64,000 bases of DNA from Liolophura sinensis (taxonomy: Eukaryota > Mollusca > Polyplacophora > Chitonida > Chitonidae). The stretch spans positions 36,029,501 to 36,093,500 of the forward strand of contig NC_088303.1 in NCBI RefSeq assembly GCF_032854445.1, in the 5' to 3' direction. Made by a program: the position numbers and the translations under genes. Of this stretch, positions 6,428 to 63,194 are shown one piece after another. Below the pieces are notes generated by a model. That model made no database searches. It saw nothing but the letters and a program-made list of their open reading frames with translations, and was not told the DNA's origin. Numbering within the stretch: the first letter of the stretch is position 1; each line of letters starts with the position of its first letter.

Positions 6428-9400
6428 TCAGCTGATTGTTAGCACATCGCTCCTGATTTCGTGGCTCAGTTGCGTCTGTAGGTCGCTCAGTTTTTTCTTC
6501 AGAATGGACAAGCAGCTGTACATGATGTTTTCAGGACGAAGTGAACCACACGCTTCAATGTTGTAGTAAAACTTCTGCGGTTGACCATTGGCTTCAAAAG
6601 GAGCTTCATCTGTTGAGAAATAAAACGTTACGATAATAAAACACAAAAATTGACCAGCATGCAGTCACATGCGGTGATGCATGCACATTTCAAAAATGCA
6701 ATCATTATACCTAACACCACACCTAACAACATTCAATGTCATTCTACCATATTCATTGCAGCTTAAAAATATCCATGAAATTAGATATGATACAAATTTC
6801 TAAAGCTAATGACATGCCCACACAAAAGCAGTATTTGCTTCAATGTTTAATCAGTAACTACACACATCTTCCCTGAGAACAAGAACAGCACCACCCTCTC
6901 AAAAAGCTGTTTGTTGCAGCTAAAAATATTAAATATGGAATGTACATGATATCTCCATGTTATTTTCCCTCACCATATGAGGGAAGGTCTGTCAGCAACC
7001 TGCGGGTGGTTGTGGGTTTCCCCAGGGCTTTGCCTCATTTCCTCCCACCATAATACTGACCGACGTCATATAAGTGAAATATTCTTGAGTAGGGCATAAA
7101 ACACCAATCAAACTAATGAATAAAAGACCTAGCTGAGTAGTACTCATTCAACTTTGGAGTCTACAACAACAATGACAAATTCAACAACTTAAAGAGAGGT
7201 GCAACACCACAAGTGCATGGTGAGAGCATTCCGAGAAAAACTTCTACTCATGAGAATACTTACGCTGATCTTCATCCAGTTCAGAATATTCACTTTTTGG
7301 CCTGAAAGCAGGTAAAGAGTAAGGTTTATTTATTTATTTGACTGGTGTTTTACGCCGTACTCAAGAATATTTCACTTCTACGACGGCGGCCAGCATTATG
7401 GTGGGTGGAAACTGGGCAGAGCCCAGGGGAAACCCACGACCATCTGCAGGTTGCTGACAAACCTTCCCACGTACGGCCGGAGAGGAAGCCAGCATGAGCT
7501 GGACTTGAACTCACAGCGACCGCATTGGGAAGAGACTCCTTGGTCATTACACTGCGCTAGCGCACTAACCAACTGAGCCACGGAGGCCCCCTAAAGAGTA
7601 AGGTAATTGCATAACTGTATTGAGACAAGAGCTACAATCTTATTATATTTCATTATTTTTCACACCTTGCCATACGATATAATACATTTAACATATTCTG
7701 AGAGAGAAATCTATATATGCAATACCAACACAGGTATTAAGCATAGGTTAGCCCCTGACTGACCAGGCTGACAAAACATTACATCGAGACGAAGCCGAGA
7801 AACTTATTTCGACTCAACATGTTGTATTACTGAAAATGAAACTTTCAAAGACCATGGGTAGCATAGGCAAATCCTGTTGATTGGTTGAGCGCAGCAAGAA
7901 AAAAAGATTGTATGTGCTAAAGTTGTATTGCTGTCAGAGCAGCTACTGAATGCACTTATATACAAGATGTACAAGAACTATTTCATTACTGTACAAAAAT
8001 GTCAGTAAAACTGCCTGTCATGTGTGAAAAGGTTAATAAAACAGAACATTCCTATGTTTAGCTGCAGCAAGCAGCTCTAAGTTTGCTCTGTCCCTCGACT
8101 GGTCAAATTTTTAACATACATGTACTGCCTTCTAACACAGGCCATTCACTTATTAATTAATGCGGGGAGTTAGTGCACAACGACATTGCAAATTTTATAC
8201 GTGAAAGGTTAGATAAATACATACCACTCCTCGGGTTTAGGGTAGGTCGTGTGACGCAGAGCATTGTCTGGATCATACTCAAAAGCTATCCCTGCTGTAG
8301 GGTTCCACTTGGCATGCTCTTTGGCGAAACCTTTGCGAGCAAAGGCCCTTAGCTTCAACTCCTGTCCTTTCCGAAGTTTTACAATGAGAATATCTGAAAC
8401 AAAGATCCGTAGTATACAAGTGCTACACTTAAGTACAGTGTGAGTGGAATCTCCACTTTATTTGGGGATTACAACGGCTATCGGGTCTGTGGGTAAAGGG
8501 AACCACCACCTGTCCACCCATGTTTGACAAACAATGAAACATTCCAAGTGTAAGCCATGGACATGTGACCTTATTGGGCAAGGCCATGACACCCACAGTA
8601 TATCCTCATTTTACCACTCTGATCCAGTGAGGACTTGGAATCTGAACCTGGCCAGCTCTCTCCATCTTTCTGCTTTAACACTACCATATATCCTTTAACT
8701 GATGTAACAGTAACCTCTACCCACTTAATAATGTGATAATCATAGCTGGTAGTGTTATTCAAATAGGCAGAGGGAGTTACTCCATCAGTTACATGATTTG
8801 CATCCTTTTGCAGAGGGCTGATGAGCCTGGTTTTGTACTTTAAGAAGATAACGGGGAAAATAAATAAATCTTGGAGTTTCTATTTACCATCAGTTTCATC
8901 ATACTCGCTGGCTTCTTCTCTGTGTCTTGAGGTCACCTGAAATGTGTAATGTAAACCATCCTGCAGTTTCAACAACATGAAGCAAGAATTTCAGAAATAT
9001 CTCCTGCCAGGTTTAACATTAGGAGTCTTTTGTATATACCTGGAATCCTGTAACTTCCCGAACTACATGTCAATAAATGATGTACATGTGCATTCCATTC
9101 AACTGGCTACACATCTATGCATTTCCTCTTAGCTGCATTTCAGCCGCCACCCATCAATCTTATTGCCAATGCATAAGTGAAGAATTCTGAAATATGGCAT
9201 AAAACAGCAATCATATCCGGTGTCGCCTTTCAACATTCATAGCTGTGACCAGGAGATTTCTGTACAATCACATTATAAAAAGCCTTGCTTGACAGTGACC
9301 TTGATCTTGTGTTTTAGGGTGGGGCCATCACTGACAGAGGTGTGCCCACAACAAAATGGACCAATCATTCAACCCCGTCACTGGCCAATTTGAGCCCCAG

Positions 9401-12400
9401 CACCTCAAGGTCCGTCTCCAGTCCTTACAGAAAATCTGTCTACAGGCCATAGGCAGGGCTGTTACCATTCTCCGATACCCACATGTAAGTTGCCAGACAA
9501 TCCAACCAATAGTGATTAACAACAGAACAATATATTATGCTCCCTCTGCCTAAATCACCCCAAAACTGGCTCCTTAAAATAATATTAAACATTAGCAACC
9601 AGAGGATCCAGGTGTACTACCACACCCCACAATTTCACAGACTTCCCTTCCTATATACCAACCTGGATAGCACAGTTGGTAGAGCATCTGCTTCGGGAGC
9701 GGTAGATCCAGGATCAATCCTGGATCGAGTCACACCTAAGACTTTAAAAGAGGGAGTTGTAACTTCCTCGCTTGGCGTTCAGCATGAAGGGGATAGTGCA
9801 ACGACTGGCTGACCCGTAACAGTATAATGGCTCGGGTGGGGTAGCTTACTTGCCTTCAGCACTAGATAAAAGAGCGGTGAAAATCCGTCCTGCAACAAGG
9901 ACGCTTACATGCACTCGGATTCCTTCGTCATCATATGACTGAAAAATTGTTGAGTACGACGTTAAACCCCAAGCACTCACTCTTTCCCTTTCTATAAGCC
10001 TACTGTAGGAGTTCATGACATAGAAATAAAGCCCCTATTAGAAACCTAAGAATTTGGTGCTAAAAAAAATCAAATGGGATACAAATTAGAATTGTGCAAA
10101 TCTTTAAAGTGTTGAACTACCAAAATTTGAGTTTCAGAAGCATCCCTTGCTCTACTTTAGGAGTTGATGTACATAAAATGAACATACTCTGATGGATGGA
10201 TGGATGCTGGTCATTCACAAACTCCCCCTTTATATCGGATGAGGGAAGTTCAAGAAAAGGGCTATATAGAGGAAGAAATATTTAAACGTGCCAGACGAGT
10301 CTACTCACCTAAGCCATTTACTAGTATGTAGCTAAAATGATAGCATCGTGCCGTTACCACATGGGTCTTCTAAGATGTCTGCATGTTTTATAATGTTTAC
10401 TAAGAAGTGATCTGTTTCTTCAGAGCCAGAATAGTGAAAATCTTTTCAAATAGTCTGTCAAGGACTCTAGCTAACAGTTGTGATGACATCCACAGTTTCC
10501 TCCCTTTATAAACTGGAGACCTATATGCTAAAAACATCACTCAAACAAAAACAAAACAGTTTGATAATGCATTAAAATGAAAGCTGGATATGTAGTCGCT
10601 GATCTTCATCCAGTTCAGAATATTCACTTTTTGGCTTGAAAGCACGTAAAGAGTAAGGTTTATTTATTTATTTGATTCACTTCTAAGATGTCTGCATGTT
10701 TTAAAATGTTTACTAAGAAGTGATCTGTTTCTTCAGATCCAGAATAGTGAAAATCTTTTCAAATAGTCTGTCAAGGACTCTAGCTAACAGTTGTGATGAC
10801 ATCCACAGTTTCCTCCCTTTATAAACTGGAGACCTATATGCTAAAAACATCACTCAAACAAAAACAAAACAGTTTGATAATGCATTAAAATGAAAGCTGG
10901 ATATGTAGTCTTAGGTAGCTACCTAGAAAAATTCTTGTCTGTTACACTGAGCATCAGGATATTTTCTCACTGGTGAATGGGACTCCAAAGCTTGTTTTGT
11001 TTTCAGTTCAAACAAATGCAGTATCCAGTTACCATGCTACAGGAGCTTGAAGTTTCTTGTCTGAAGGAGATTATGGATATTTGGAACAGAACTATTCACC
11101 GACAACATAGATGTCTGAATGAAGTAAAAATGAAGTAAAAAAACAAAGTAAAAATAACAAATATTTCAGTATCTCCAATTTCTCTTGTTTTCTAATCTAC
11201 CAGCAACCTGCGGATGGTCGTGGGTTTCCCCCGGGCTCTGCTCGGTTTCCTCCCACCCTTATGCTGGCCGCTGTCACATAAGTGAAATATTCTTGAGCAC
11301 GGCGTAAAACACCAATCAAATAAATAAATCTTGTTTTCTAATCATGTTTTGGGATATAGAGTCCTGAACCTGATAACTCAGGTTGCCCAGCATTTCCAGC
11401 CGGGTAATGCAGTACTAATCATCTTCTATTTACCCTACAGGTGAAATGCCTTCCTCTCCCTCCCAAACTTCTGGAGGCAGTGCAGTCCCTAGAGATGGCA
11501 GACTTTTACATTGACCCTGAGCACCTGCGTAGCAGCCACCATCTTAGCCATTCCTACCCAGCCACATGTACCCTGGATAACCAGCCTGTGACACTGAAGG
11601 TCACAACCAGAGGTAGGCAACATGTGCCATCAGGGCCACTTGTTCAAAAGTGTATTAATAGTTAAACCAGGCTTAAATCTCAATACCAGTATTATTTTTA
11701 CACAAAACCAGTTGAATTTTAGTCCAGCACACAAAACCAGTTGAATTTTAGTCCGGACTTAATACAAAGCTTAACTGCCTTTATACACTTTTGGACATCC
11801 CCTGTGCTCTACTGCAACACACAATATATGTATGTATGTGTATGCTTTGGTGCATGCTATATATATATAAATAAAATGTGTGTTGTTACCACAGACCACA
11901 ATCAATCACCTGTGATCTGCTGGAAACTATCCTAGTGACTAGTCTGCCCTAATACTTTCTGGATTTCTCTCTGCAGGAACAACTTTACCAGAGTCTGACC
12001 CATCCTACATCACAACATTTAACAGCTCTGACAAAAATGTTCACGTTTTCCGTCGGAAAACCAGCCTAAGGGAGATCATCAACAAGCACAAGCGAGAGGG
12101 AGCTAAGCTGGAACCAGAATTTGTATGGTCAGTTGTGTCCGCTATGGCTGGAGTCTTACAGAACTGCCACCCTTCACTGGGCATCAATCCGGACAACATT
12201 TATAGTCACCACAATGGCATCGTGACGATTGACATGGATCCACCAACCAACAATAAGATACCTCAAGACCTGGAAGAAACACCTGTATATGACTCCCCAG
12301 AAGTACTTCTCCAACAAGATCCTGATTCCAGGGCTCTCAGCTGGGTAATTGGCTGCATACTATACGAAATGTTGGCCATGAAACCAGCATACTATGTAAG

Positions 12401-15400
12401 GTCAGACACCTCTTTGCTTGAAGTGATGCAGAATATTATTCAAGGGGAACAACCCCCTCCCCTGGGCTGTGGTGGAAAATTTAATAAACTAATTACATAC
12501 TGCCTTTCACAAAGAGAAAGTAGGATATCTCTTGAAGGTATCACAAAAATTGCCAACAAGGGATGTGAATAAGGGCTTTTTATGTTTTTTATCTTTTTTA
12601 TATCAACTTTTAATGTATATAATTGAAAATCCTTTACGGTATATATTATTGTTATTATTATAGAGAAATACCAGAAAAGTATCTCCTATAACTGTTATGA
12701 GCTGGAGACATATTTACAAATCTCCGGTTACAGTCTTTATCAAACCATATAGATAAAGTACTATTTGTTCTTGACTTTTAACTAGCGTTTTAAAAAAATT
12801 TACAATGATATGGTTTAATAAAGTATGATGTTACTTGTAATTTTTAACCCTGTGTATGTCAATGTTTACCATCAAATGAATCCCAGCACGACTGTGCATA
12901 GAAGTTTTTTCCCCTCTACTGAACTAAATGTTTACAACAGCTCTAATGTGAGTGTTAAAACTGGGAGCTGGATGTTGAAATATGCCCATTATGTCAACAA
13001 TAAATTATAATATACATGTTGATTTTGTGCAATACTTGGTGCAAATATTGTCATAGCCATTCAGCAAAAAAAAAAAAAATGGTTTGACCCAGATCAGTCA
13101 AATGAAAGGGTATTTCCCACTTTATACCCCCCAAAATAATGACAATCTCAAAATGTTGATCTGTTTGGTTTCTAGAAAACATTAACCATTTTGGAGTACA
13201 AACAAGCATGGTAAAAGCTGAGCTGCTTTCTGAAGTACAGACTTGATATGTTTATGTTTATTAGCTTGGTCAACTAATTACATTCATTTGTCAAAACTAC
13301 ATATACCTGAGAGCTAGTGATGAACATGTTCCTACATGTATTCATAGAAATAATGGCTATGCAAGGATGTCTCACCGCTTAACAGTGTTTGGGTAATGAC
13401 ATACTTGATGTTTGTGTCTAAATGCTATTACAACTACTGTACCATAAAGGTGAGGTTAACTCATGTACATATTTTATGTCAAACATCACAAAAATGATAA
13501 TATATTTCACTTTTACACCAATATTGTTTGCTTGTTTTGGTGTTATATTATGTTTTTAAATTTTTGGATATGTTTTTTTGTTTTTTTTTCAGGTAAATAA
13601 AGTAATATTGAGCACATGTTATTTGTACCCCAGGTTTCCTTACAACAGAAAGCAAAGGGTGTTAATTCACGCCTGTCTATCTTTGTTCTCTGCAATATCT
13701 GCACCAAGTCTTGTCCACCTTTCAAATTTCATGAGCAGGTTCATTTTCTGCAACCTCAGATCAAGTCTACAAACCAGCCAGCCTGTGCAAAAAATAACTG
13801 AACAGATACTCAAGCTCTTTAAGTAATCCACAATGAACGGAAAACCGCAGATGATTTTTCACTAAAAATAACCTTTTGCTATTCAATTGTGGTGTCATTT
13901 AGAACATGAAAGACATTTCCAATGTATTGGCTACGTTGTGTGTGAAAATGTGCATTAGGCTACACCAATTCAACTTTTGGGTATGGGCGAAATAAACTTT
14001 TTTCTGATGCCAGTGTAGTGTATAAAAATAAAGATAAAGTAAAAAAATCCTCTAATTTGTGGGAAATATAAGCTATCCTAGCAATTGTCCCTGTTAGTGA
14101 CATTTATGTGATCGGAGAGCCTTGACAAACAGAAACGTGAAAAGAAAAAACAAGACCTAATTTTATATTTCACTTCTATTCCATCCTTACGTTTTTGCAT
14201 CAGTTTGCCCATAAAATGCAAAATTAAACTGATGTGGCCTAAGGTGTTAATGTGATTGGCAAGGTATGAGATGTGTTCATTGCAAAGTGAAATGCTGCAA
14301 ACTATAGACACATATCAAAGATGATTCAGAACCCCAAAACATAAAACTAACGATTAAAAGCAAGGACTGTAAAATATCTTTGAAACTTTCCACTAAATTT
14401 GAACAGTTTTAATTAGTTCTCTCCTTTTTTTCTACTAAATACATGTAAAACTTACCGGAACAACTTTGGGGTTACTGGAAATGAGGTCTGCACTTGTAAC
14501 ATGGCACGTTTGATCATCCATACATTTCACCTCAAGTGTGAACTCCACTGAACAATCCTGGCAAAACTCCTCGCAAGTACAATCCTAAATAAACGAACAA
14601 CCCAGACACTTTTTTTTAAAGCATTTTTAATGCATCCTACATGTACCTCTTGCTGAAGTGTGTCAGAGAATCTCTACTTGTTATTTTCATTGTGTTCAAA
14701 GGAAAAAAAAAAACAGAATCTATATCTGCTCTGGCACATACAATGTCCAGCAGCAGTCCAGTGAATCTGTTGTAAATATATGAAGATTCCACGTAGTACA
14801 AACAGTAATATAGTAAAACAGAGGATCAGCTAAAGGGTGAAAGTAACACCTCCATTAACTACATGTATATCTCTATGACTACCTCTATCTATAAATGCTG
14901 CTTTGAGAATCTAAATTTGAACCTCATCACTGAAATCCTACAGACGTCCAGTCAGAGTGCCACATAATTGACTGCTGTACCTGAATACCTATTACACACT
15001 ACAGTGTGTGATACACATCCAAGAACTACAGTGTCCTTGCTCACATGTTCTTTTCTTTACTACCACAAGTCTTACCCTGCAGTACTGCATTCTGTCCACC
15101 ACTTCATCACTGGTAAGTGGAATTAAGCCAACTCTATGAGCAATAAATTCATCATGAAGGACAGACGAGTTTGCCTCTATCTGCACCCAGTCGATGGCTG
15201 AAAAAAATTAAAATGTCTAGAAAATGAATGGCTTGAGTGGTAAGGCTAATCTTCAGAAATATGAGGACCTAACAGTTCTTTATTTAAACCTCGTCACCAA
15301 AGAAAATTTCAAAAAATCTTTTTATGTGTTGTGAGAGTTGCAAGATCCCTAAAAAGTAAGCATGAAATAAAAATGACACACAGGTAAGAAAAACGGAAAC

Positions 15401-17074
15401 AATAGCCAAAACGTACTATTTCAAAACAAGTCTTTATAAACCTAGATCTTTCTTTATTTTGCCAGCAGACTGTCAACTGTTTAGTATTCTGCTGAAAATA
15501 TTCTGCTGGGGTGGAAAAGAATTTATTTCTTTCATTGATGTGTCACTGAAAATATTTCACTTGAGCTATAATGATCACATTTATGCTTACCGTGATAATT
15601 AGCAATAAACTTCTTGCATTTAAAGTGCATTCTTTAAATTAATATTATGTTGAAAGTAAGTGTCAAAACACACACAAAACTCACCAATGGTTGGTACTTC
15701 CGCAATGCTGACCCTTCGTACAGCATTGGCTACACTGTAAATCATAACAGCCAAAAAGTAAAAAATGATGACTGATAACTGCACAAGAAATGCAACTAAA
15801 TTCAGCAATATTGTACAGGGTCCCACATTCACAATCTTTGATTTTGAAGTAAAAAGATGCACTGCATTTTGATAAGTGACTTTGCATACACTGTGTATTT
15901 GTCTTCGTTTTATATCCAACTGACAGCCTACACTGCGATAATAACCACACCCAAGGATCAATACAGTTGTGATCGGCTATATTGGCAAATCAGCTCACAT
16001 TCAAAAAAAAAAAGCAATCGCACCCTGTTGTTGAACTGAGATCAAAGAGCAACCGTTTTCCTCACCATTAACACTTGTTAGTATTATGCTAAAAATGTAT
16101 TTGAATTGTCCATCCTTGGTGGGTTTTTCTTGTGACTGCATGAGCATGCCCACTGTGCTACTCTTGACCCTCTGGGGTCATTCCTCACGTATGAGTAAAT
16201 TCATAATTTCGAGCATCCGGGTTCTTCACCAGGAACAGGTGGTGATGAAATGCTAATTTTTGCCGATTACTAAATTTTAATAAAATTAACATTGGAATAA
16301 TACTATTTGGAGGATAAACACATTCTGTTTACATTCCCAGAAAAAAAATTCCTTCCTTAAAGCTTTTCTGTGCTAAAGTCTTTTTCAATGTTTATTTCAT
16401 CTGGGTTAAAATTGCTTTGTTTTTGCCTCCAGTACTCTAGTCACATGTGCAGCTGACTGGCTCAGAGCAGATATGACATCACTGCAAACTATCAACATAA
16501 GCCAACCTTAGACCAGAGTTTTCGGGCTGTGTAAAATCACAACTTTCAGTGCATTGATATGCAAACCTCTCACCTTTTCTGGCTCAAACCCGCATGACCT
16601 TACGATAATGTTCCAATGCTAATTTATGTTTATACAAGTGATAGTTGGCCTACATGATAATTATGTTGATTTCGGTTTTCATTCACAAACATTTCTGGTT
16701 CACCGTTCTGTTTTCCCACACCTGCCCATTTTAGTGACCCTTCCTCAGCGAGAGCTACTGCTGAGACAACAGTTAAGACAGTTTGAAGACCAATCGGGGT
16801 TAGATTTGTGCACCAGATGTAAATAAGTAGCATACAAATATATTTAATGAAAAAAGCAAGGATCTTATGTCTACACGTAGTCACTGCATGAAGTGGCTGT
16901 TCAGTTACTGCGCCACAAAATTAAAGACAATAAATCAGACGAAAATTTCGAATTTAACGTATAAGGCTGAATTTAAACAAGTAATCACCTGAGATTTGTA
17001 TCTTCGATTGTAAACTTGAGATTTTCATCAGTTAAGGAGGTTATTGAGACGATGGGCTGATTAGCGTACGGCAT
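6428..17074 (-). CDS. POLR2C: RNA polymerase II subunit RPB3
   Basis: RPB3 is a core polymerase II subunit that pairs with RPB11 to form the alpha-like assembly platform in the nucleus. Eight exons join in phase: 16989-17074, 15685-15734, 15076-15197, 14456-14584, 8888-8936, 8225-8393, 7264-7301 and 6428-6609. All introns are GT/AG on the minus strand. The product is 274 aa, against about 275 in vertebrates. Start MPYANQPIV and end SDVLTIS* match the family ends. The alpha-like dimerisation region includes [12 protein letters not shown] and [19 protein letters not shown]. Zinc-site cysteines sit at about residues 88, 90, 94 and 97 ([10 protein letters not shown]). [11 protein letters not shown] and CGSLRPENI are further family signatures. 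Intron 4 (8937-14455) hosts an antisense gene. It diverges from RPRD1 over 373 bp. I see no defects. Confidence 0.97.
6975..7125 (+). mobile_element. SINE-A, 5'-truncated
   Basis: 3' half of SINE-A in POLR2C intron 7, antisense to the host gene. It runs from GGAAGGTCTGTCAGCAACCT through the TTTCCTCCCACCATAATAC block to GTGAAATATTCTTGAGTA and a degenerate AATAAA-type tail. The tRNA-related head is absent. Confidence 0.8.
7326..7591 (-). mobile_element. SINE-A, full length with target duplication
   Basis: A complete copy read on the minus strand. The tRNA-like head is at 7591 (GGGGCCTCCGTGGCTCAGTT, then GGTTAGTGCGCTAG), and the core contains CATAATGCTGGCCGCCGTCG. The 3' end is TGAAATATTCTTGAGTACGG followed by AAATAAATAAA. 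A perfect 13-bp target-site duplication, TAAAGAGTAAGGT, flanks it at 7313-7325 and 7592-7604. Its tail ends about 24 bp upstream of the POLR2C exon 7 acceptor, so it sits at the edge of the splice branch region. Confidence 0.93.
9356..12572 (+). CDS. NEK-like pseudokinase nested in POLR2C intron 4
   Basis: Four exons join in phase: 9356-9484, 11007-11123, 11441-11612 and 11977-12572, all with GT/AG borders, giving 337 aa. The first 100 or so residues are helical and not recognisable as kinase. QPVTLKV resembles the beta-3 lysine strand, but I see no glycine loop. The C-lobe order is clear: [13 protein letters not shown], then [14 protein letters not shown] where active kinases have HRDLKPxN, then TIDMD for the DFG position, YDSPEVLL for the APE motif, and [12 protein letters not shown] for DxWSxGCxxYEM. 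The catalytic Asp of HRD, the DFG motif and the subdomain IX Asp are all replaced, so activity is unlikely. NEK-like is my best guess from the overall C-lobe; another family is possible. Start is the first in-frame ATG after an acceptor-like TTTTAG at 9309-9317, so an upstream 5' UTR exon is possible. Confidence 0.8.
9656..9985 (+). mobile_element. SINE-B, full-length copy
   Basis: The tRNA-derived head at 9661-9730 has an A-box-like word (TAGCACAGTTGGTAGAGCAT) and a B-box-like word (GGATCAATCCTGGATC). The body has GAGTTGTAACTTCC and GACTGGCTGACCCGTAAC. The tail is CATATGACTGAAAAATTGTT, then ACGTTAAACCCCAAGCACTC. An 11-bp target duplication with one mismatch flanks it: CCCTTCCTATA at 9645-9655 and CCCTTTCTATA at 9986-9996. 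It is distinct from SINE-A. It lies in intron 1 of the nested pseudokinase gene. Confidence 0.8.
10367..10597. repeat. 231-bp direct repeat, copy 1
   Basis: Nearly identical to 10680-10910 at a constant offset of 313 bp, with very few substitutions (for example TATAATG versus TAAAATG, and CAGAGCC versus CAGATCC). The 82 bp between the copies is a displaced copy of the POLR2C exon 7 region, so duplication and insertion look like one event. Confidence 0.95.
10598..10675 (-). pseudogene. Dead copy of POLR2C exon 7 in intron 4
   Basis: Matches 7264-7341 over 78 bp with only two mismatches seen. It covers all 38 bp of POLR2C exon 7 (as 10598-10635), the intron upstream of it and the first bases of the adjacent SINE-A tail. 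It lies in the same orientation as the host gene but 3.3 kb upstream, in intron 4. The acceptor CAG has become CAA, and the copy stops at the exon end so the GT donor is replaced by GA. It should not be spliced. It also lies inside intron 1 of the nested pseudokinase gene. Confidence 0.9.
10680..10910. repeat. 231-bp direct repeat, copy 2
   Basis: Partner of 10367-10597. The two copies end at the same base (ATGTAGTC), beyond which copy 1 runs into the exon-7 copy and copy 2 into unique intron sequence. Confidence 0.95.
11197..11330 (+). mobile_element. SINE-A, 5'-truncated
   Basis: 3' half only: AGCAACCTGCGGATGGTCGT, TTTCCTCCCACCC, GTGAAATATTCTTGAGCACG and a tail AATAAATAAA. It sits in intron 2 of the pseudokinase gene, in the sense orientation. 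Confidence 0.85.
12817..12822 (+). terminator. Candidate poly(A) signal of pseudokinase gene
   Basis: AATAAA 245 bp after the pseudokinase stop codon, the first canonical hexamer on the plus strand after it. Another AATAAA occurs near 13000. Assignment is by position only. Confidence 0.4.
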
Positions 17075-17447
17075 TTTTAACCTAAACCCACGTTTCCGTG
17101 ACAGTTCCCTCCTGTTGTTGTTGAACTGCTACAAGACGATACTGACGCCCTCTGGTGGACGCAATTTGATTCGACCATACCATTACAAGTTTAAGGTAGA
17201 TCTACACCTGTCAAAGAGCTTTATAAAACCATATTATTCAATTTTAAAAATACTGTTTATGAAAGTGCAAAAACATTCATCTTTACAGTTGTAATGGGGA
17301 TGGAAATACAAGATTAAAGGCTGTGTTTCTTATTCACCACCTTAATGTAGTTCCCACTCATCACACCTCTGATTTGGATGCGCCCAAATGATGTTGTTGC
17401 TGTTGCGGCATCGCGTGCTGCGCCGTCTGCAAATGTAAACATCGATA
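17075..17447. promoter_or_regulatory. Bidirectional promoter, POLR2C / RPRD1
   Basis: The 373 bp between the two divergent start codons must hold both 5' UTRs and both promoters unless an upstream non-coding exon exists. It has a GC-rich stretch at about 17387-17430 and no TATA box at a convincing position. ATCGATA lies just before the RPRD1 start, resembling a DRE-type core promoter word. A CTCF-like motif sits at 17145-17158. Confidence 0.75.
17145..17158 (-). promoter_or_regulatory. CTCF-like motif
   Basis: The plus strand reads ACGCCCTCTGGTGG; its reverse complement CCACCAGAGGGCGT matches 12 of 14 positions of the CTCF core CCACCAGGGGGCGC as I know it. A near-identical motif in the same orientation is at 47480-47493. 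Motif match only; no binding data. Confidence 0.5.
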
Positions 17448-18273
17448 ATGTCTTCATTCTCTGATCAAAATTTTGCCAAGAAACTCAGTGACTTGAATAA
17501 TACTCAGCAGAGCATCCAAACTCTGTCACTCTGGTTGATACATCATCGAAAACATGCAAAATCTATTGTGAACGTGTGGTATCGGGAGCTGTTGACCGGT
17601 GAGTAGTAACATACATGTAGATAAGATTTTACTTTGCAGGCCAATGGATCGTTTGATTTGGTGAACTAGCAGATAGGTATACTTGTAAACGATGTTAAGC
17701 CAACTGTGCGGCACTTACTTAGACCATGGAGGTATATGTACCATATCTACCTCAATGTTTAGATAGAACTAAGACATACACCTCAATAGAAAGGGATAAG
17801 TGGCATAATTCTGGGGAAAAAGTGTTAGTCCATCTAGATGGACTTGGTGTATTATTTTAAATTTCTGACATTCATCGTAACACAGTTATGATGAATGTCC
17901 GAAATTTAAAATACCACGGGGTTCATCTAGATGGACAAGAGAAAACATGTATATTTTTATTTGCATATTCTGATATGAATGCATATTTCGAACTATTTCT
18001 ACTTTACAGTACCTTTGCTCAAATATGATTTTTTAAGTCATTACAGTACAGTCATTTAGTCCCACATCCTTATACTTACTTTTCTTGGAGCAGTGCTAGA
18101 GCTCTACCCCCTTCCACCTCAGGGACTTATCGTGTGTCTCCTGTGAATGTCGACACCTCCATAAATATGCACGATACAATTTTGGCGGCCTCACGAAGAT
18201 CATTGCCCCACGTTAAAATGTTTCGCACCATGTGTAAGCAGAAAATAAAGCTTTAATTATATGTACAAAGATA

Positions 18274-18326
<53 letters not shown>

Positions 18327-21300
18327 GCCAATGTGTAATGCCAATATGGTGTTAAAGTTTTGAAATGGTTTTGATTTTATGCACCAGCAGGATAGGGTTA
18401 ACTTTTATCCACACAACCTTTTACCCCCCACCAGCTTCGTTCCAATCTTTTGTGAAATCATACCCAACTTGATCCAGTAATAATCTGCTACACGCTTCTC
18501 TAAGTTATTGGATTGTTGTTTTTCATTGGGCTCAAGAATATTTCACTTACATGTACAGTGTGTGCTATGGCAGCTGGTGCTATTGATGATGGATTTTTTT
18601 TTCCTGTTTTTAAATTTGAATGTCAGAAGAAATTGTATTGATTTTAAGATTATAGACAAAAGGCAACGTATAAAAAGAAATCCTGAATGGATTGGTCACT
18701 CCTCTGAGAAATCCGAACGCTTGACTGCCATGTTATACACACATGGTATTGGCCTAACCGCAGTGCTCATCATGTCAGCAGTAACACTTTATGACTTTTA
18801 GCAGATTGAGGTTTCCAAATGATGACTGCGACAGCTAATCATATTTTCCATTAAGTTTAGACTTACTGCTGTGGAAGTGTCTTCCAAAAATTTATTATTT
18901 TTATTTATTGTATGTTTTTAATGTAAAAACAAGGAACAAAATTTTTCTGAATTACAGTTCGTGCCAGTCAAAAGCTGACTTTCCTGTATTTAGCAAATGA
19001 TGTCATACAAAACAGCAAGAAGAAAGGCCCGGAGTTTCAGAGAGAATTTGCTGCCATTTTGGTAGAAGCCTTTGGCACTGCAGCTAAGTATGTGGCATTT
19101 ATCACTATTAGCTTTTGTTTAATGTGTCATGATATTCATCTGAAAAATTGATGTCATTTTAATTCAACACGTTAAAGTCCACCCCTCTTTATTTGACATT
19201 CTGATATTCATTGATCGACAGGACAGAGATAAGACAACATTTGATGCTACGTCTGGCTGGCACTTACAGAAATAAATAAAAGTCTGCTACCCATCTAAAT
19301 GTGACTTTTGACGTATTCTCTTCCAAGGTTTTCTTAATATTTAAAAGTAAAAGGATTGGTTGGTTGCTAAAAGTCAGATGTCCGGTATTGTCAGGGAGAT
19401 CATTTAGCTGAATTATCAGGTCAACAAATTACTTATGTAGTGTTTGATATGTTAAAGGACCATGCATCTTTTCATGTGGAAAAACTGTGAATTTGATTTG
19501 ACTCTTACATCTGCCTACATGCACGTATAGATACTGAGGCTACAGGCTTTGTGGTCTTAAATTTGACATGTATCAAAAGTTAATTTAAACATCTTTTCAA
19601 ATAAAATATAAACTGAAATTGGTAATAAAATCCTTATTCGATATAAAATTCATTTTGGTTGAACATTTTTGGTGAGCATTCAGAAGTAAAGGGCAATGGG
19701 TACATGTATTTATGATGTCTATTGATGATACATTTACATACGTGTAGACATATAAACATGCATTTACTATGTTTATTTGTCCCACATTTTACCTCTTCCC
19801 CTTTGACAGAGATGCTGACAGTAAAATGACAAAATCTTTGGAGAGGTTGCTGAACATCTGGCAAGAACGAGGCATTTATGACAAAGAGCTAATTAAACAG
19901 GCCAGACACAGATTGAGTGAGTACATTCAGTCACAAAATTGAATAAACTCGGAGCACGTAGCATCTTAAATGTGGTGTAAAGTATCTTGATGTGCAGAGA
20001 CGCATCTTAAGAAGTTTTAAAGTTCAAATCACATTGGGCCAGTGTTGCAGTTGTTTTATGTATTTTTAGCCTTATAGATACAATATATTTATCACAATTT
20101 GAATCACTTAAATTTTGTAGCCAAAGGTGGGAAGTACAGAGCTCTTAGGAATTTCAAACAAGGTCAGTAAATTGTGGAAATGTGACAGAATTCATGGACA
20201 TGTTATGTCACATCTGTTGTGTATTTGGTGTTACCCTAACTCTTCAACCTTTTCAACTGTCTCTGAAACCAATATTTTGAAACATTCTGAGAGAGCTTTG
20301 GGTTGTAGAGAAATAATTTGCATGGTTTTATGAAGCTTACATTTTTAATGACACAAACAAATCATTTCAGCATCATTTCCTTAATAACTGAATGAATAAG
20401 ATTTACAGTTCATGTACTGGACATTTCTGTGAATACTACATAGGTGATTTTTAGTCTACCGTACTGGGGCTCTTTGGCTAAGCGTAATTTAGAAGTATCT
20501 ATCCTAGATCTATCCTACTTGTGGAGTTGATTTCTTGAACTTACAAGAAGTAAGATTAAGTGTGGCATTATGTTAGGAAAGTAGATAGCCAAGCAAGATA
20601 AACCATGGTGTGGCCAAAGTGTTTTTAGGTAGTTAAGCACTACTGACATGTCCCAAGTTATTATGTAGTATGAAAATCACTGGTCGATTTTTATACACAC
20701 CTTTAAGAAGCTGTACAACCAAGTTGTGGCTGCCTACTGAAAAATTGTCAATGTTCTGACACATTGCAGACAGTGCACTCCGTGCTTTGTTGATTGCACT
20801 GTATCCAATGCACTTATCGAATTAATGTACAGTATCAAGAAATTCAACACTGCATTTAGAGTGGGTTGAATCAGATCAGTGTGTTTTTGACTAGAGAATG
20901 AAATTCATTGTTTGATATAACATAGTTGGTCGCCAGGAGTTACAAATGAGACTGATTAACTCCTCGAAAAGTCCTTGATCCTGGAGAGATTTCCTGACAT
21001 ACGACATGCTAAAAGTGTCAGCTTTCCCCCAGTGGGTTGCAAGGGGTCCTGGTGTGGCAACTGAAGAAGTGTGTTCATTGTTGGCAATACCAGTGGCTCC
21101 TTCACCAGCATATGCATCCGCATTGGCTACCAGCACTGGGTTGGCCAGTGAGGAGCTATCACCAGTTCCTCCTCCTCCTCTGTCCTGATCTTGCGAAGGG
21201 TCTTTATGACCAAGCTGAAAGGAAAAAGAACAATACACATAATTTCCTGACAAGGTCATAGAAAAAGCATCTACATGCCTTACTGAGGGGTCAGGCCTCC

Positions 21301-24300
21301 AAAAAACATAATTAGGCAGTTGTGTGTTAAGTCTATAGGCAAATATGTCAATGTCTGGTGTACCAAACATTTCTGTTAGGCCGTTAAACACAGATTTGTT
21401 TAGCATGTGTTCCTTACTATCATCAGATACTCGACTTTCTCTGTCAGCCTCAACATTTTTTACCTCAGGGATGTGACATGCACTTAGCCATAAATTCCTG
21501 TCTTTACACCACAGCTAGATTTCCTGAGCAAATTTATTACATTTCTCAGATTTACATCCACCAAAATTAGAAATGTAATCTAATGCAGTTGTGTTATCAA
21601 CCTGTACTTGCACACTCTGAACCTTTGGTTTGAAACCTTCTAAGAGCATAAAAAAACTGCCAATAATTCAAGATAATTTTTAGGACTGCTCATTTCCTGG
21701 GCTATCCATCTACCCTCAGTTTTTGCTTTGTTCACTACAGCTCCCCAGCCAATCACACTTGCATCTGTGGTTAAAATTATATTTGGACTCCCTTGTATTA
21801 GATTTACACTATTTTCCACATTGTCTATCTACTATTATAGATTTCCTTTGGGTGATGCCGATAATTTCATAAGTGCATCAAAATTGTCCCTTTCTTGTTT
21901 CTTGCTGTGAACTTGTACCTCTCTATATTTTTATAGAACAGCTGACCAAATTGAACTGTGGGAAATTTGGAAACAATCAAACCTATCACATGTGGTGTTC
22001 GTCTTATACCCACCAAATTGGCCTTGTACAAAGTTAAACATTCCTGGCAGATGTTCTCAGATTTTTCAGGTGTAAGCCGAACTGTCATGTCGACTGAATT
22101 AAGTATAAACCCCAGCAATGGTAATTCTTGTGTGAGTTGCAGCACTGATTTGGAATCATGTACAATGAAACTTAGTTTTGTTAGCAAATCAAGTGTGTCA
22201 GAGGTGTTTTCTTGGCACTGTTCATACATTTGGCCCTGTAGGTAGCTCTGCTCTATATAATCCACACTAATGTGACCTTTCTGTCGGAGTGATAAATAAA
22301 CTGGTTTTAGCAACTTTGTGAATAGTCTAGGTCCCAAAGACACACCGTTTGGAAGGATAGTAAATTGATAAATCTGACCTTCCCAAAAAAATCTGAGATA
22401 TTTCTGATGTTCTGACGTAATTGGGATGCTGTAATAAGCTTTACAAAGATCCACAGATCCTGTGAACGCATTTGGTTGCATAAGATCGATGGCAGACTGA
22501 ATACTACTTGTTTTAAAGGGGCGAAATACAACTGATTTGTTTAAATCTTTCAAATTTATAATATGTCTGAATTTGCCATCTTTCTTTTTCCGGACGAAAA
22601 TGGGGGACAGAAACTGTCCTTCACAATGTTGATTATTACACCTTTATTTGGTAAAGATTCAGTTTCATTATTGACAAAAGCCATTCCTGACGGGATATTT
22701 TAACCTTGGGCACACCGTGCTTTGGTTGTCGCATTGGCATGTTATTAGTGAATTCTATATGACAATGTTGGACTGTGTTTAACATGGCTTTGTCTGACGT
22801 GAGTTTTTCCCATTCCGAAACAAAACCTTTCAGTCTACCCCCTATCGGCAGTGTTTTTTGCCTCTTTTACTGTCCTTTACCTTTGCCCACTCCCCATTTG
22901 GTAGGTAACCTGTATGGCCTCTGTAATGTCCGCCTAAGGGACAGCTTCTGAAGTGTGTGTAACCCCAGTCCCTGCACTGACTCCAGCTAGATCCATGAAA
23001 GTGTTTTCCCCTGAGGCCTCAACGGAATCCACGACCAATATTGGGGTGCCATAGATTTCTTCCAACTTTGTTAAATTCCGTCATCTCATGTATTTCGATA
23101 CATCTGGGCCAAACAGCTGGAGTTAATAATTTCTGCCAGTTTTCTGAGTCGATTGCAACTCTTGTTGATTCCTCTTTTAGAATCTTTTCATCACTTATTA
23201 ACATGTCGCCCTGACGACCGTCTACGCTTGAGCTATTTTTAGCTTGCTTAGCTGCCTGGGCTGCACCAAGCGACTCGTCAGGTCATTCGAGTTCAGTTTA
23301 GGGTTATTAACCTGGGGTTTGGCCTCGAAAGAATCAACAACCCCACTTCATAAATATCTTCTCCATACCGGTATTGTGAATGATATTCGTACTAGTCATC
23401 ATCATAGTCCATTGCCATGTTCTGAGAAACCTACATTTCGAAAAGACTTTTTTAGACTTTTTCTAACATTTTCGAGAGCAAGACTTTTAAACATGAATTT
23501 GTTTCGTACACGCCTGACTGTGATTTATTTCCAGACTATTGACTTGCCCTCAGATGTTTTACTTTTTGCAGGTCCTTTGTCCTTTGAGTTTTTGCTTTTA
23601 CCAAAGTCATTATGCTCTTTAATGCTCTGATGACTCGTAGTCTTGAACAACATGACATAATCATGATCGTCAGCCATATCATGCTGAAATAAAGTCAGGA
23701 ATTCCAAGGAAATTATTTTTCAACTGGGGAGTAATTTGAGTCAGTTATCACAATGAGAGCTTGGGCAATTATGCCAGCAACTCTTGGTTGATTACACACC
23801 AGTCCGCAACTGATAAATTATTATCAGAATGTAGACAAGAGTTTACGTCTTGTCCGCCTAAATTTACAAGATGCTCTGCCATGACGCATGTGCCACTCAA
23901 CTCTCACATGATCCTCTCTGATTTAAATCCACATTTTATATGGGTAGTAAAAGATACATGTATTTATTAATGTATATGTAGTTATTCTGGTGATATACAC
24001 GTATTATTGTGAAAAAAAATCACGGTACATAAGCCCACTTTACAATTTCAGCATTTTAATAGAACTTTTCTAGGTAAAGAGGGTTTTTTACCGGGAAAAT
24101 TCCTTTGAGATTTCATACATGTAGGTAATTCCTTTTTTTAAAATAAGAAAATTATTTGTTATTACTTTTAAATGTTGAGATTATAATGTACCATATTTTG
24201 GTGTAATGATTGATTACATCATGATTTTTTTTTCCACAATAATATGTGTGTTATACAAAAAAAACTATTTTGTAACATGTTCCATGAATAGATTTCACGA

Positions 24301-27300
24301 AAATGCAGTTTATATGTAGGGTAAAAAAAAATACCTGGTTTCACATCATTAGACATTAAGTAAGGCCCATAGACTGCACCTTACAATCTTAATATATAGG
24401 TGGACAGTTTGTGCTTTATAAAATATAACTTTTAGCTACAGTTATGTGCGGGCCTGACATCATTTTTTCTCTACTTTTTCTCTACTTCCACTTTAAAAAT
24501 AAATTGTGAATATTTATTTTTTGCAAGAATAATGTTTTGATAGGATTAAAGTGAAAGTTTGAATTTCATCAGACAACCAAAATACTTGAACTGTTGTTTA
24601 GCAAACTCAGGCTCAGAACCTCCGGCCCCTAAAAAGAAGAAGCAGGAGCCCATACTGTCTTTACTGGAGGAGGTGGAAAAAGAGCCAGGAGTAGGCGTCC
24701 CAGAGGTAAGGGAGATAACTGACCCTATTGTGTCATGTCAGCAGATTCCTGGGATGCCATTTATGCGAGCTGTATTTGATAACTGCTTTGCTGTTATCAA
24801 TTCTGACTGTTGGATATAATTGTTCTGTGTAGAGGTTGTGCACTGGAGGCAATGTTGGAATTCTAACCAAAAAATGTGATGATCTTTCTTGAAGAGTGCC
24901 TTTTCACAAAGTGCTCTGGGCTTTAACGGTTTTTTGTTGAAAATCCAACTTCATGAACATCTGTACAAGCCATCTGTACACTGATGTGATATACATGGCC
25001 ATAAGTTACATGTATATTTTTTTATGATAAAGTTTCAGTCCAGAAAATATATTTTTCTTTTCAAACTTACTTTTTTAAGCATGGGATGTTGGCATATTTG
25101 GTTAACTTGTTTCACTGTAAAATATACTGTAAGAGTAACAAAATTAGTTTACTTGATATGGTACTATAGGACAAAAGTGCTAAAAAATAATAACACGACT
25201 ACAGCTTTAATAATCAACAAATCTTGATACTACTTCTCTTGGCATGGCACACAGCCTAAGGGAATATTTATTTTTATTCGTGTGTTACGCTGCACTCAAA
25301 AATATTTCACTTATATGAAGATGGCCAGTATTACACTGGGAGGAAACCAGGCAGAACCCGAGGGGAAACCCAAAACCATCCGCACGGACATTCCCGCTTA
25401 CGGCCAGAGAGGAAGCCAGCATGAGCTAGACTAGCACTCACACTGACAGCATTGGTGAGAGGGCTCCTGGGTTATTGTGCTTGGCTTGCATGCTAAGCCC
25501 CTCAGCCACAGAGGACCCCAGAAGGGAATAGGCCAAGTAGTGATTGCCTCAGACAACACATGAATGCAGGAAGGGTCAGGTACTGGTGAATGAGACTGTT
25601 GATCAGGGTAACCTGTTGTATTTCCTCAGGCTGATGTGTTGGTGAAGGCCCTATCTGATCTGGACAGTGCTGCCTCTAGTGACGCCGCTGTCAGAGAGAA
25701 GATTGCTGCTCTCCCCCCAGAAGTCTCCGATATTTCAAACCTGGACAAGTTGCAGGGTAAGCACTGTTTGTAAAGGATTACAAGAAAAATGTAAATGTAT
25801 TTTCCAGCAATACATGGTAAGCATGCCCTCCAAATCGTTTGAACAGTTGATGTACATTACAGGCAATTACATGTAGGTGGCTTACTCTGAGGTCACTGGT
25901 TCAGAACCCACCAATTACGCCCTTACTTTAGAGCCATTTTAGTTCGAGAAAGCATTTGATTTATTGATTTGTTTATTTCATTGATGTTTGACGCCGTACC
26001 CAAGAATATTTCACTTATACGACGGCGGCCAGCATTATGGTGGGAGGAAACCGGACACAGCCCGGGGAAAACCCACAACCATTGGCAGGTTGCTGCAGAC
26101 CTTCCCACGTACGGCCAGAGAGGAAGCCAGCATGAGCTGGACTAGAACTCACAGCAACCACATTGTTGAGAGGCTTCTGGGTCATTATGCTGCGCTAACG
26201 TGCTAACCAACTGAGCCACGGAGACCCCGAGAAAGCATTTAGGCACTAGATCTAATCAAGCTGTGTTAAAACTAACAAGTAAATTGAACAAAAATATGAT
26301 GAATTACCAATAAAGGCTTAAATTTTTAAATAAGTTTCTTTCTTTCACAGACTTAAAAGCTCTCAGAAAGCATCAGAGTTGCATTTTATACAATTTCTTT
26401 ATGCATGGTCACCTTTAAAAGTTTAGGCTCAGTTTTTTTGTAGAAATGACCCTGCCATCAGAGGTCTCAGTCAATTTTTAGCTCTAGAATGTTTGCTATT
26501 CAGAGAATGTGTATTAAAATCTCAAATATAAACCGTACCGCTAAACCACTTAAAAGGATATTCACCAATCCAATGTATTCATATGTTTTTAACACAGTGG
26601 TGATTCTGTGGACCACATTGACTTGGTCAGGCTGTTCAACTTTCCTTTAACATTCAGGCGTTCAAATAACATGGCTAAGATATTAAGATTAGAATGTTCT
26701 GTGAATTTAAAAATTAGGAAGAAGAGGTTGTTTGATGTCATCTGAATATACCTTTAGAATCATGTTTTTGTGTTTAGATTTTGCATCTTGAAGGTGTGAA
26801 CATCCAGCAATTGAATATTTTTATTTCTTAGAGTGATAACTTCTGATAAATGTCCAAAGATTGTCTTAAAATTGTCTGCAAGAAGTAATTTCTTCACTTT
26901 GTGTTAGCTGTAGTGGTGTTCAAGTTTTATGCTATATTTGTAAAGACATGAATTTCATTTGTTTGACAAAAGGGTCATTTGCTCAGTTCTGAGGAATATT
27001 TTCTTTTAGCCAGAGATTTTCACATTGCCTCTCTTGTCTTGCACCTGCACTTGAATTCCTTGCATATTTCTCCTGGTGACATAGTGTAAATATCTCTAGG
27101 CTACAGATATTTCCCCTCTGCTTGGCTTGATTTCTCTTTGTGACACTGCTGGATTTCTCCGTGTTTAACAGGGATTTATTCTAGGCTAGCTACAGATATT
27201 TTGGCCTGGTACTGCTTGATTTCTCCGTGTGACATTGCTGGATTTCTGTTTACGATGTTGCAGCATTTACCCGGGGCTACTGACAATGCTAGATCTCACC

Positions 27301-40536: not shown

Positions 40537-43500
40537 TTAAAGCTGAGGAATAAATATATATCTACTATGGGTGACTAACCACATGGTGACAGAATCCTCA
40601 GGCTGAAAAACACGTTTTCTGGCACCACACCCAGCCACAATGTACTCACTCCCAAAGCACTAATCAGACATAACACTACACCCAGCCACAGTGTACTCAC
40701 TCCCAAAGCACTAATCAGACATAACACTACACCCAGCCACAGTGTACTCACAAAGACTTATCAGACGTGACACCACACCCAGCCACAATGTACTCACTCC
40801 CAAAGCACTAATCAGACATAACACCACCACCCAGCCACAATGTACTCACTCCCAAAGCACTAATCAGACATAACACTACACCCAGCCACAATGTACTCAC
40901 TCCCAAAGCACTAATCAGACATAACACTACACCCAGCCACAGTGTACTCACAAAGACTTATCAGACGTGACATCACACCCAGCCACAATGTACTCACTCC
41001 CAAAGCACTAATCAGACATAACACCACACCCAGCCACAATGTACTCACTCCCAAAGCACTAATCAGACATAACACCACCACCCAGCCACAATGTACTCAC
41101 TCCCAAAGCACTAATCAGACATAACACCACACCCAGCCACAGTGTACTCACTCCCAAAGCACTAATCAGACATAACACCACACCCAGCCACAATGTACTC
41201 ACTCCCAAAGCACTAATCAGACATAACACCACACCCAGCCACAATGTACTCACTCCCAAAGCACTAATCAGACATGACACCACACCCAGCCACAATGTAC
41301 TCACTCCCAAAGCACTAATCAGACATAACACCACACCCAGCCACAATGTACTCACTCCCAAAGCACTAATCAGACATAACACCACACCCAGCCACAATGT
41401 ACTCACTCCCAAAGCACTAATCAGACATAACACTACACCCAGCCACAGTGTACTCACAAAGACTTATCAGACGTGACATCACACCCAGCCACAATGTACT
41501 CACTCCCAAAGCACTAATCAGACATAACACTACACCCAGCCACAGTGTACTCACAAAGACTTATCAGACGTGACATCACACCCAGCCACAATGTACTCAC
41601 TCCCAAAGCACTAATCAGACATAACACCACACCCAGCCACAATGTACTCACTCCCAAAGCACTAATCAGACATAACACCACACCCAGCCACAATGTACTC
41701 ACTCCCAAAGCACTAATCAGACATAACACTACACCCAGCCACAGTGTACTCACAAAGACTTATCAGACGTGACATCACACCCAGCCACAATGTACTCACT
41801 CCCAAAGCACTAATCAGACATAACACTACACCCAGCCACAGTGTACTCACAAAGACTTATCAGACGTGACATCACACCCAGCCACAATGTACTCACTCCC
41901 AAAGCACTAATCAGACATAACACTACACCCAGCCACAGTGTACTCACTCCCAAAGCACTAATCAGACATGACACCACACCCAGCCACAATGTACTCACTC
42001 CCAAAGCACTAATCAGACATAACACCACCACCCAGCCACAATGTACTCACAAAGACTTATCAGACGTGACATCACACCCAGCCACAATGTACTCACTCCC
42101 AAAGCACTAATCAGATATACCACTACACCCAGCCACAGTGTACTCACAAAGACTTATCAGACGTGACATCACACCCAGCCACAATGTACTCACTCCCAAA
42201 GCACTAATCAGACATAACACTACACCCAGCCACAGTGTACTCACAAAGACTTATCAGACATAACATCACACCCAGACACAGTGTACTCACTCCCAAAGCA
42301 CTAATCAGACATAACACTACACCCAGCCACAGTGTACTCACAAAGACCTATCAGATGTGACACCACACCCAGCCACAGTGTATTCACAAAGACCTATCAG
42401 ACGTGACATCACACCCGGCCACAGTGTATTCACAAAGACTTATCAGACATGACACCACACCCGGCCACAGTGTATTCAAAAACGCAACACTACACCCAGC
42501 CACAGTGTAGTACTCAAAAACACCTATCAGACACGAGACCACACCCAGCCACAGTGTACTCACAAAGACCTATCAGACGTGACACCACACCCGGCCACAG
42601 TGTACTCACAAAAACCTATCAGATGTGACACCACACCCGGCCACAGTGTATTCAAAAATGCGACACTACACCCAGCCACTGTGTACTCACAAAGACCTAT
42701 CATACCTATCAGACATGACATCACATCCAGGCACGATGTACTCAAAAACACCTACCAGACACACTACCACACCCAGCCATGATATACTCAAAACACCTAT
42801 CAGACATGACACAACACCCAGCCACAGTGTACTCAAAAACACCTATCAGACATGACAAAACACCAAGCCATAGTGTACTCAAAACACCTATCAGACATGA
42901 CACCACAGCCAGTGTACTCACACCAAAACCACCAATCAGACATGAGGTACCACAGAGTACTCAAAAACGTGACACCACACCCGGCTACAGTGTACTCAAC
43001 AAAAACACCTATCAGACACGACACCACACCTGGCCACAGTGTACTCAAAAGCACCTTTCAGACATGACACCACAGCCACAGTGTATGCTCACCAAAACCA
43101 CCAATCTGACGAAACCACACATAGCCACAGAGTACTCAAAAACGTGACACCACACCCGGCTACAGTGTACTCAAAAACACCTATCAGACACGACACCACA
43201 CCCAGCCACACTGTACTCGAAAACATGACACCACAACCAGCTGCAGTGCACCCACAAACACCTATAAGACATGACACCACACCCGGCCACAGTGTACTCA
43301 CCGTCACCTATCAGACATGACATCACGCCCAGGCATGATGTACTCAAAAACACCTATCAGACATGACAGCACACCAAACCATAGTGCACTCAAAAACACC
43401 TATCAGACACAACACCACACCCAGCCATGATGCACTCAAAAGCACCTATCAAACACAACACCACACCCAGCCACAGTGTACTCAAAAACACCTATGAGAC

Positions 43501-52941: not shown

Positions 52942-53212
52942 ATTATGTCGCAGCTCAATGTGAAGTGTAGATGTCACACTGGTGTCACAATTTGTGTGAC
53001 GACCAGGATGGCAACACTTGGTACGCTTGAGGATTATGTCGCAGATCAGTATAAAGTATAGATGTCACACTGGTCTCACAATTGTGTGATGACCAGGATG
53101 GCGACACTTGGTACGCTTGAGGATTATGTCGCAGATCAGTATAAAGTGTAGATGTCACATTGGTGTCACAACTGTGTGACGACCAGGGTGGCGACACTTG
53201 GTATGCTTGAGG
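52942..53212 (-). repeat. 90-bp triplication across the PHLPP stop
   Basis: Three tandem copies: 52942-53032 (91 bp), 53033-53122 and 53123-53212 (90 bp each). Copy 3 contains the PHLPP stop codon at 53166-53168 and the last 14 or so codons. Copy 2, in the would-be 3' UTR, still spells a near-identical tail ending T-Q-L-stop. Copy 1 has a one-base insertion that breaks the frame. Confidence 0.95.
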
Positions 53213-60626: not shown

Positions 60627-60666
<40 letters not shown>

Positions 60667-62631: not shown

Positions 62632-63194
62632 CTGACAAACAGAAGAAAAACAATTACCAGCATGATGCAAAACCTGTAAATTATCTGAATAAGTATTTCA
62701 TGCAATTGCGAATATACAGATCCCGCTCTTATCATTCATTCTGATGTATTCATCCGATTGTTAAACACAACACTCAGCAACTTTTCACTTATACAATGTC
62801 TGTCAGGACTATTGTAGGAGATGGGATTACCTGGAGAAAACCGAGGAACTTTTCCACATATCATGTACAGATATACATACCACAAATGGTCTTCAATGAA
62901 GGTTAGATTGCCTCACTGCAGCACAAGTATCCCCAACTGCGTATTGTCACTCAGGACCAAAAATCAGTAAGCAGAGTATGCGAATCAACAAAATCTCTGT
63001 CCAAGGCTGGCTTTGTGTCCAACCAATAGAAAGGAAACCACTCCCTGATATCTCAACACGTCATCACAGCATGTGATCAAATCATAATATGTGTATGTGG
63101 ACATGTTATTCTAACCTACAGTTCACATGTTCTTGCACATGTCTGCAGGTTTCAAATGACTCAATAAGGGAAACCTTCAGATTTTTTATCTTGT

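Follow-up and report, generated by a model that had tools for sequence, protein, structure and literature searches.

A head-to-head POLR2C-RPRD1 gene pair in the chiton Liolophura sinensis and a CTCF-like site between its start codons

POLR2C, which encodes the RNA polymerase II subunit RPB3, and RPRD1, which encodes a CTD-binding regulator, lie back to back in the genome of the chiton Liolophura sinensis, with a few hundred base pairs between their start codons. The arrangement raises the question of what the interval does: it could be a single promoter shared by two functionally related genes, two promoters that happen to have come close together, or one of the many compact promoter regions from which pairs of housekeeping genes are expressed in animals. 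We studied the locus within a window of 64,000 nucleotides (C9:36029501-36093500, in a genome of 609 Mb); unless a contig is given, positions are counted from the first base of this window. The reading that we favor, to which we assign a probability of roughly 0.6, is that two housekeeping genes are served by one compact head-to-head promoter region, which would comprise two core promoters and, less firmly, a CTCF site that may activate POLR2C.

The head-to-head arrangement of POLR2C and RPRD1 is confirmed. The POLR2C start codon is the complement of positions 17072-17074 and the RPRD1 start codon occupies positions 17448-17450, leaving exactly 373 bp between them (Table 1); the two genes are on opposite strands, point apart, and are both intact, which places them within the distance of <1 kb used to define bidirectional promoter pairs. 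Both gene models were assembled from splice sites. The spliced POLR2C model encodes 274 amino acids without an internal stop, and residues 1-273 are matched in the comparison with human RPB3 (phmmer E 1.9e-148). The RPRD1 model encodes 328 amino acids: Pfam CID and CREPT are already matched by individual exons, the CID half and the C-terminal half both have human RPRD1B as their best PDB match (E 1.2e-49 and 1.1e-55, respectively), and the reading frame is also kept when the 42-nt exon 4 is omitted. By these exon models, phmmer comparisons, and PDB matches, the preliminary description was right about the identities of the genes, their start codons and strands, and the 373 bp between them. Searching the whole genome with both proteins revealed no further copy of either gene; the only other match to RPRD1 is an exon on C8 that is 50% identical and that we take for RPRD2, and the only other match to POLR2C is an exon on C6, likewise 50% identical, that we take for POLR1C/RPAC1. 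No relatives of the POLR2C or RPRD1 protein were found in viral contigs. The 373-bp gap has one match in the genome, which is itself, and a promoter derived from a repeat is ruled out by this single match.

Table 1. Coordinates of the gene pair and of the features in the gap, as positions in the window
Feature	Position	Strand	Basis or remark
Gap, candidate bidirectional promoter region	17075..17447	.	Between ATGs; single genome match
POLR2C (RPB3) coding gene, 8 exons	6428..17074	-	Exon model; phmmer to human RPB3
POLR2C exons 1-4	17074-16989, 15734-15685, 15197-15076, 14584-14456	-	
POLR2C exons 5-8	8936-8888, 8393-8225, 7301-7264, 6609-6428	-	
RPRD1 coding gene, 8 exons	17448..29785	+	Exon model; Pfam CID and CREPT; RPRD1B match
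RPRD1 exons 1-4	17448-17598, 18958-19087, 19810-19916, 20121-20162	+	
RPRD1 exons 5-8	24611-24705, 25630-25756, 28179-28354, 29627-29785	+	
CTCF-like core CCACCAGAGGGCG	17146..17158	- (POLR2C sense strand)	13-mer; one-mismatch 15-base consensus at 17144-17158
CpG-poor, AT-rich mid-gap	17201..17400	.	CpG observed/expected 0.17; flanked by CpG-rich ends
TTTATAAA, self-complementary TATA-like word, readable both ways	17220..17227	.	By eye; may be chance
CATCGATA, immediately 5' of RPRD1 ATG	17440..17447	+	By eye

The introns of the two genes and the rest of the window hold several other elements. In POLR2C intron 4, on the opposite strand, there is a protein-kinase-like frame (11943-12569, plus strand, perhaps together with 11408-11665) with a Pfam Pkinase match at E 1e-7 and Nek7 and Nek2 as the nearest PDB chains, the match covering no more than the C-terminal portion of a kinase fold. 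The same intron contains a perfect 38-nt copy of POLR2C exon 7 (10598-10635, minus strand) in which the acceptor AG has become AA, flanked by 221-bp tandem copies (10367-10587 and 10680-10900) that are 99% identical. RPRD1 intron 4 carries, on the minus strand at 20894-22643, what is presumably a DIRS-like retrotransposon, with a reverse-transcriptase frame at 21867-22643 (RVT_1 E 6e-11) and a neighbouring frame at 20894-21514 that has no Pfam match. The short repeat word GTGTTTTACGCCGTACTCAAGAATATTTCAC, probably derived from a SINE, occurs in ten copies (at most 3 mismatches) from 7074 to 60618, and by eye similar translated pieces can be seen in the regions 5' of several Pol II genes. Long minisatellite arrays, the basic periods of which are ~37-98 bases, occupy 27258-27997, 40623-44904, 55393-56804, and 63197-64000, and some of them read through as long open frames that are not genes. 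Convergent with RPRD1, the minus strand at 53169-62735 encodes leucine-rich repeat frames and the end of a PP2C phosphatase, which we take to be parts of one PHLPP gene. Rfam families gave no match in the window at gathering scores.

The preliminary description had treated the interval between the start codons as one shared promoter. Two back-to-back core promoters fit equally well or better, given that the ends of the gap are CpG-rich and its middle is CpG-poor. The CpG observed/expected ratio, which has a value of 0.87 for the gap and 0.39 for the window, reaches 1.1-1.6 at the POLR2C end (200-bp windows within 16901-17200) and 0.8-1.1 at the RPRD1 end (200-bp windows within 17301-17600). 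A profile of this kind looks more like two core promoters placed back to back than like a single central element. Its weight is limited, since ratios as high as that of the whole gap are common in this genome: the same level is reached by 28% of 740 arbitrary 373-bp tiles. Of the two short words picked out by eye in the gap, the one next to RPRD1, CATCGATA, differs by one base from TATCGATA, the fly DRE word, a resemblance that may carry no meaning.

The gap also contains a CTCF-like site on the POLR2C side. Its 13-base core, CCACCAGAGGGCG, which we take to be a CTCF core (the consensus that we used being CCASYAGRKGGCRSY), is in forward orientation for POLR2C, at a distance of 72-84 bp 5' of the start codon of that gene, and in reverse orientation for RPRD1, 290-302 bp 5' of its start codon. 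The site fits 14 of the 15 consensus positions and is the sole match in the window with no more than one mismatch. When two mismatches are allowed, the window has 4 matches against 3.2 in shuffles, which is no enrichment. Genome-wide (609 Mb), CCACCAGAGGGCG occurs 42 times compared with 2 occurrences of the reversed control, and the full 15-base consensus 352 times compared with 21, so that CTCF-type sites stand ~17-21 times above control. A sample of 80 kb from 20 arbitrary stretches contained no match even with two mismatches allowed, and the reversed control had 4 at two mismatches. In 36 of the 42 genomic copies, a pyrimidine follows the core directly. That the word might be part of a repeat was rejected, since the 42 flanks are mostly unique, the exceptions being two identical pairs (L004/L005 and L031/L032) and one similar pair (L021/L051). 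With two duplicates dropped, the remaining 40 flanks differ strongly in CpG from the window (p ~1e-10), a contrast that arises because the gene bodies there are CpG-poor, and are barely higher than arbitrary stretches (p 0.045); CpG richness was dropped as evidence for promoters once the contrast had nearly vanished in this second comparison. The mean CpG observed/expected ratio is 0.65 in arbitrary stretches and 0.38 in tiles of the window, as if housekeeping gene bodies here were methylated.

A protein that could read such a site appears to be encoded in the same genome. At C5:7852148-7852987 we found a CTCF-like protein, to which a human CTCF query of 283 residues and ten fingers aligns from residue 2 to residue 283 with 56% identity (E 1.3e-99); the next match by E-value is far weaker (3.1e-38, 36% over 216 residues), and shorter matches of the query to other zinc-finger genes reach up to 54% identity. 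The core motif is read by CTCF fingers 3-7. In the chiton protein, fingers 3-5 are identical to the human ones at helix positions -1, 2, 3, and 6, which read the bases, and each of the other seven fingers departs from its human counterpart in at least one of these positions. Judged by these residues, the protein should be able to recognize the motif.

What such a site might do is suggested by work in mouse cells, where promoter-bound CTCF is reported to activate essential housekeeping genes directly, Polr2c being among those named, and where Polr2c is also listed among the essential genes lowered by CTCF loss (a 2025 study, PMC12695661). According to the same study, promoter binding of CTCF for this class of genes is conserved between mouse and human, and activation prefers forward motifs at a median of ~79 bp upstream of the transcription start; we took "forward" to mean the consensus on the sense strand. 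The Polr2c promoter was part of its luciferase panel, in which all eight CTCF-dependent promoters are described as losing activity upon CTCF depletion and six upon mutation of the motif, the exceptions being Dusp12 and Tab1 (PMC12695661). Because both exceptions are named, Polr2c would by elimination be one of the six motif-dependent promoters. Like mouse Polr2c as described there (PMC12695661), chiton POLR2C has a CTCF motif in forward orientation a short way before its start; it differs in that the site is a predicted one, that the distance is measured from the ATG, and that the gene is a member of a divergent pair. In the annelid Dimorphilus, CTCF motifs are reported mainly at promoters (PMC7854359). 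Searching the titles and abstracts of open-licence papers for CTCF together with POLR2C, we found no other paper on such a site. We made the connection to the mouse work only once the site had caught our attention; it was not predicted.

The site is not common to the other genes of the mouse set in this genome. Nine further genes of that set were queried, with PSMD4 as a control. Of the nine, seven could be placed in the genome; for two of these, BYSL and WDR70, the E-values were weak (0.12 and 0.06, respectively), and the matches were accepted after inspecting the translations by eye. The protein search of the genome returned an internal exon alone for RBM17 and no credible match for MRPL23. 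Six of the seven located genes have no site at up to one mismatch in the 1.4-7.6 kb scanned: PSMD6, for which the start codon was mapped and 1.4 kb was scanned, and POLR3A, NLE1, BYSL, WDR70, and RABGGTA, for which ~7 kb each was scanned and the promoter may lie elsewhere. POLR3A does have a site with two mismatches. TTC5 has a forward one-mismatch site, CCACCAGGTGGCGAT (L059, C9:2038503-2038517), 123 bp before the exon found, from which the distance is counted, its first exon not having been located. The control, PSMD4, has no site. Among genes for Pol II subunits, POLR2E has a perfect 15-base consensus in reverse orientation 376-390 bp upstream of its ATG (L044, C7:33049540-33049554) and an additional one-mismatch site ~2.9 kb upstream; the other seven Pol II genes that we examined, and RPRD2, have no site at up to one mismatch.

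We think it most probable that the gap is a bidirectional promoter region of the ordinary housekeeping kind, made of two core promoters. Both transcription starts would lie inside it, and two back-to-back core promoters, one by each CpG-rich end, would sit in a common region of open chromatin. With less confidence, we suggest that CTCF may bind its site and activate POLR2C as in the mouse, and that the site may also mark a boundary between the two promoters. RPRD1 would then share openness with POLR2C, and not necessarily control. A related arrangement comes from Luan et al. 2022, cited in PMC12695661 for the finding that CTCF blocks antisense transcription at divergent promoters: there too a CTCF site is placed between two diverging start regions, but what runs the opposite way is upstream antisense transcription, whereas here it is the RPRD1 gene.

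Alternatively, the two promoters could be independent and merely close, with the CTCF-like site or the AT-rich middle keeping them apart and the genes not co-regulated. Transcription starts this near each other normally share one nucleosome-depleted region, which argues against full independence, and we consider this alternative unlikely, if arguable: two CpG-rich ends around a CpG-poor middle and a CTCF-like site of single polarity speak for it, and the partners in human divergent pairs are reported to tend toward different processes (PMC3815023).

A different alternative begins from the genes themselves and depends in part on how unusual their pairing is. If genes were placed at random, ~1% of them would be expected to have a divergent neighbour starting no more than 373 bp away, a rough figure that assumes a density of ~1 gene per 20-25 kb. 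Divergent pairs are reported to make up 25% (3,950/15,884) of neighbouring genes in amphioxus, 12.83% in mouse, and 7.84% in zebrafish, and to be enriched for housekeeping functions (PMC6292497), and ~10% of human genes are reported to be in divergent pairs (PMC3815023). Because head-to-head housekeeping pairs are frequent in animal genomes, the arrangement in the chiton is ordinary and not rare. It shares with the bidirectional housekeeping promoters described in amphioxus (PMC6292497) and human (PMC3815023) the opposite strands, the starts <1 kb apart, and the broadly needed genes, but the G+C content here is only 40%, so that there is no vertebrate-style CpG island.

As a yardstick for the pairing of such genes in this genome, we used the 5' parts of eight Pol II subunit genes (A, B, E, G, H, I, J, and L) and of RPRD2, a set in which the start codons of POLR2B, POLR2G, and POLR2I are not firmly placed. 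Among 68 opposite-strand open reading frames near these 5' parts there was no clear Pfam partner; the positive control, the first exon of RPRD1, gave one clear Pfam match in the scan, and two marginal matches (E 0.003 and 0.004) were set aside. The scan would miss short first exons, such as those of unrecognised families. POLR2C is the only one of the nine Pol II genes examined with a recognisable close divergent partner, partners with short first exons being missed. Near POLR2J there is an unrecognised opposite-strand frame of 285 amino acids, the first ATG of which is ~1.2 kb from the POLR2J ATG. The preliminary description knew of no such pairing in vertebrates, which agrees with our search of open-licence papers, where none of those listed reports a POLR2C-RPRD1 pair, and with the human neighbours: COQ9 upstream of POLR2C, and TTI1 head-to-head with RPRD1B. 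This last pair likewise places an RPRD1 gene in a divergent pair, with a different partner.

The alternative that would make most of the pairing is a conserved regulatory cassette, along the lines of the preliminary description, for which co-expression of the two genes would be meaningful: the genes for RPB3 and for a regulator of the polymerase CTD would have stayed head-to-head because their levels then rise and fall jointly. The two proteins are functionally related, and the amphioxus data suggest that some bidirectional pairs are ancestral and that such pairs were often lost in vertebrates (PMC6292497), but Pol II genes are not generally paired in this genome, at least within the reach of the scan described above, and, with thousands of divergent pairs to choose from, one related pair picked post hoc says little; we consider a cassette improbable.

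By eye, the sequence from position 17351 up to the start codon of RPRD1 contains no AG, and on the other side the AGs directly 5' of the POLR2C ATG are without a preceding pyrimidine tract. The AG context near the two ATGs does not suggest 5' UTR introns that would displace the starts, and both promoters likely lie within the 373-bp gap. That one or both genes start elsewhere, through a non-coding first exon that escaped us, in which case the gap would not serve both as their promoter, is very improbable: several other genes that we examined seem, by eye, to begin in a short upstream exon, but no good intron acceptor could be seen near either ATG.

With two core promoters in a compact region as the preferred reading, the gene pair by itself is one more head-to-head housekeeping pair, and the CTCF-like site is the more valuable lead. 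An old link between CTCF and POLR2C is possible, by analogy with the mouse; the lack of such a site, in the stretches scanned, from six of the seven other located genes of the mouse set counts against it, as do the differences from human in seven CTCF fingers. The age of the activator role is debatable because Drosophila CTCF is described, in the discussion of the mouse study, as being without direct activation (PMC12695661). A bolder proposal, which we put forward as speculative and think doubtful as a whole, is that the activation of POLR2C by a forward upstream CTCF site predates the split between protostomes and deuterostomes; CTCF would have begun partly as an activator of Pol II supply, the fly would have lost this role, and in the chiton the site would also divide the divergent promoter that POLR2C shares with RPRD1. 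Whatever the fate of that proposal, the site upstream of POLR2C offers a simple test of whether direct activation of essential genes by CTCF is old or a vertebrate novelty.
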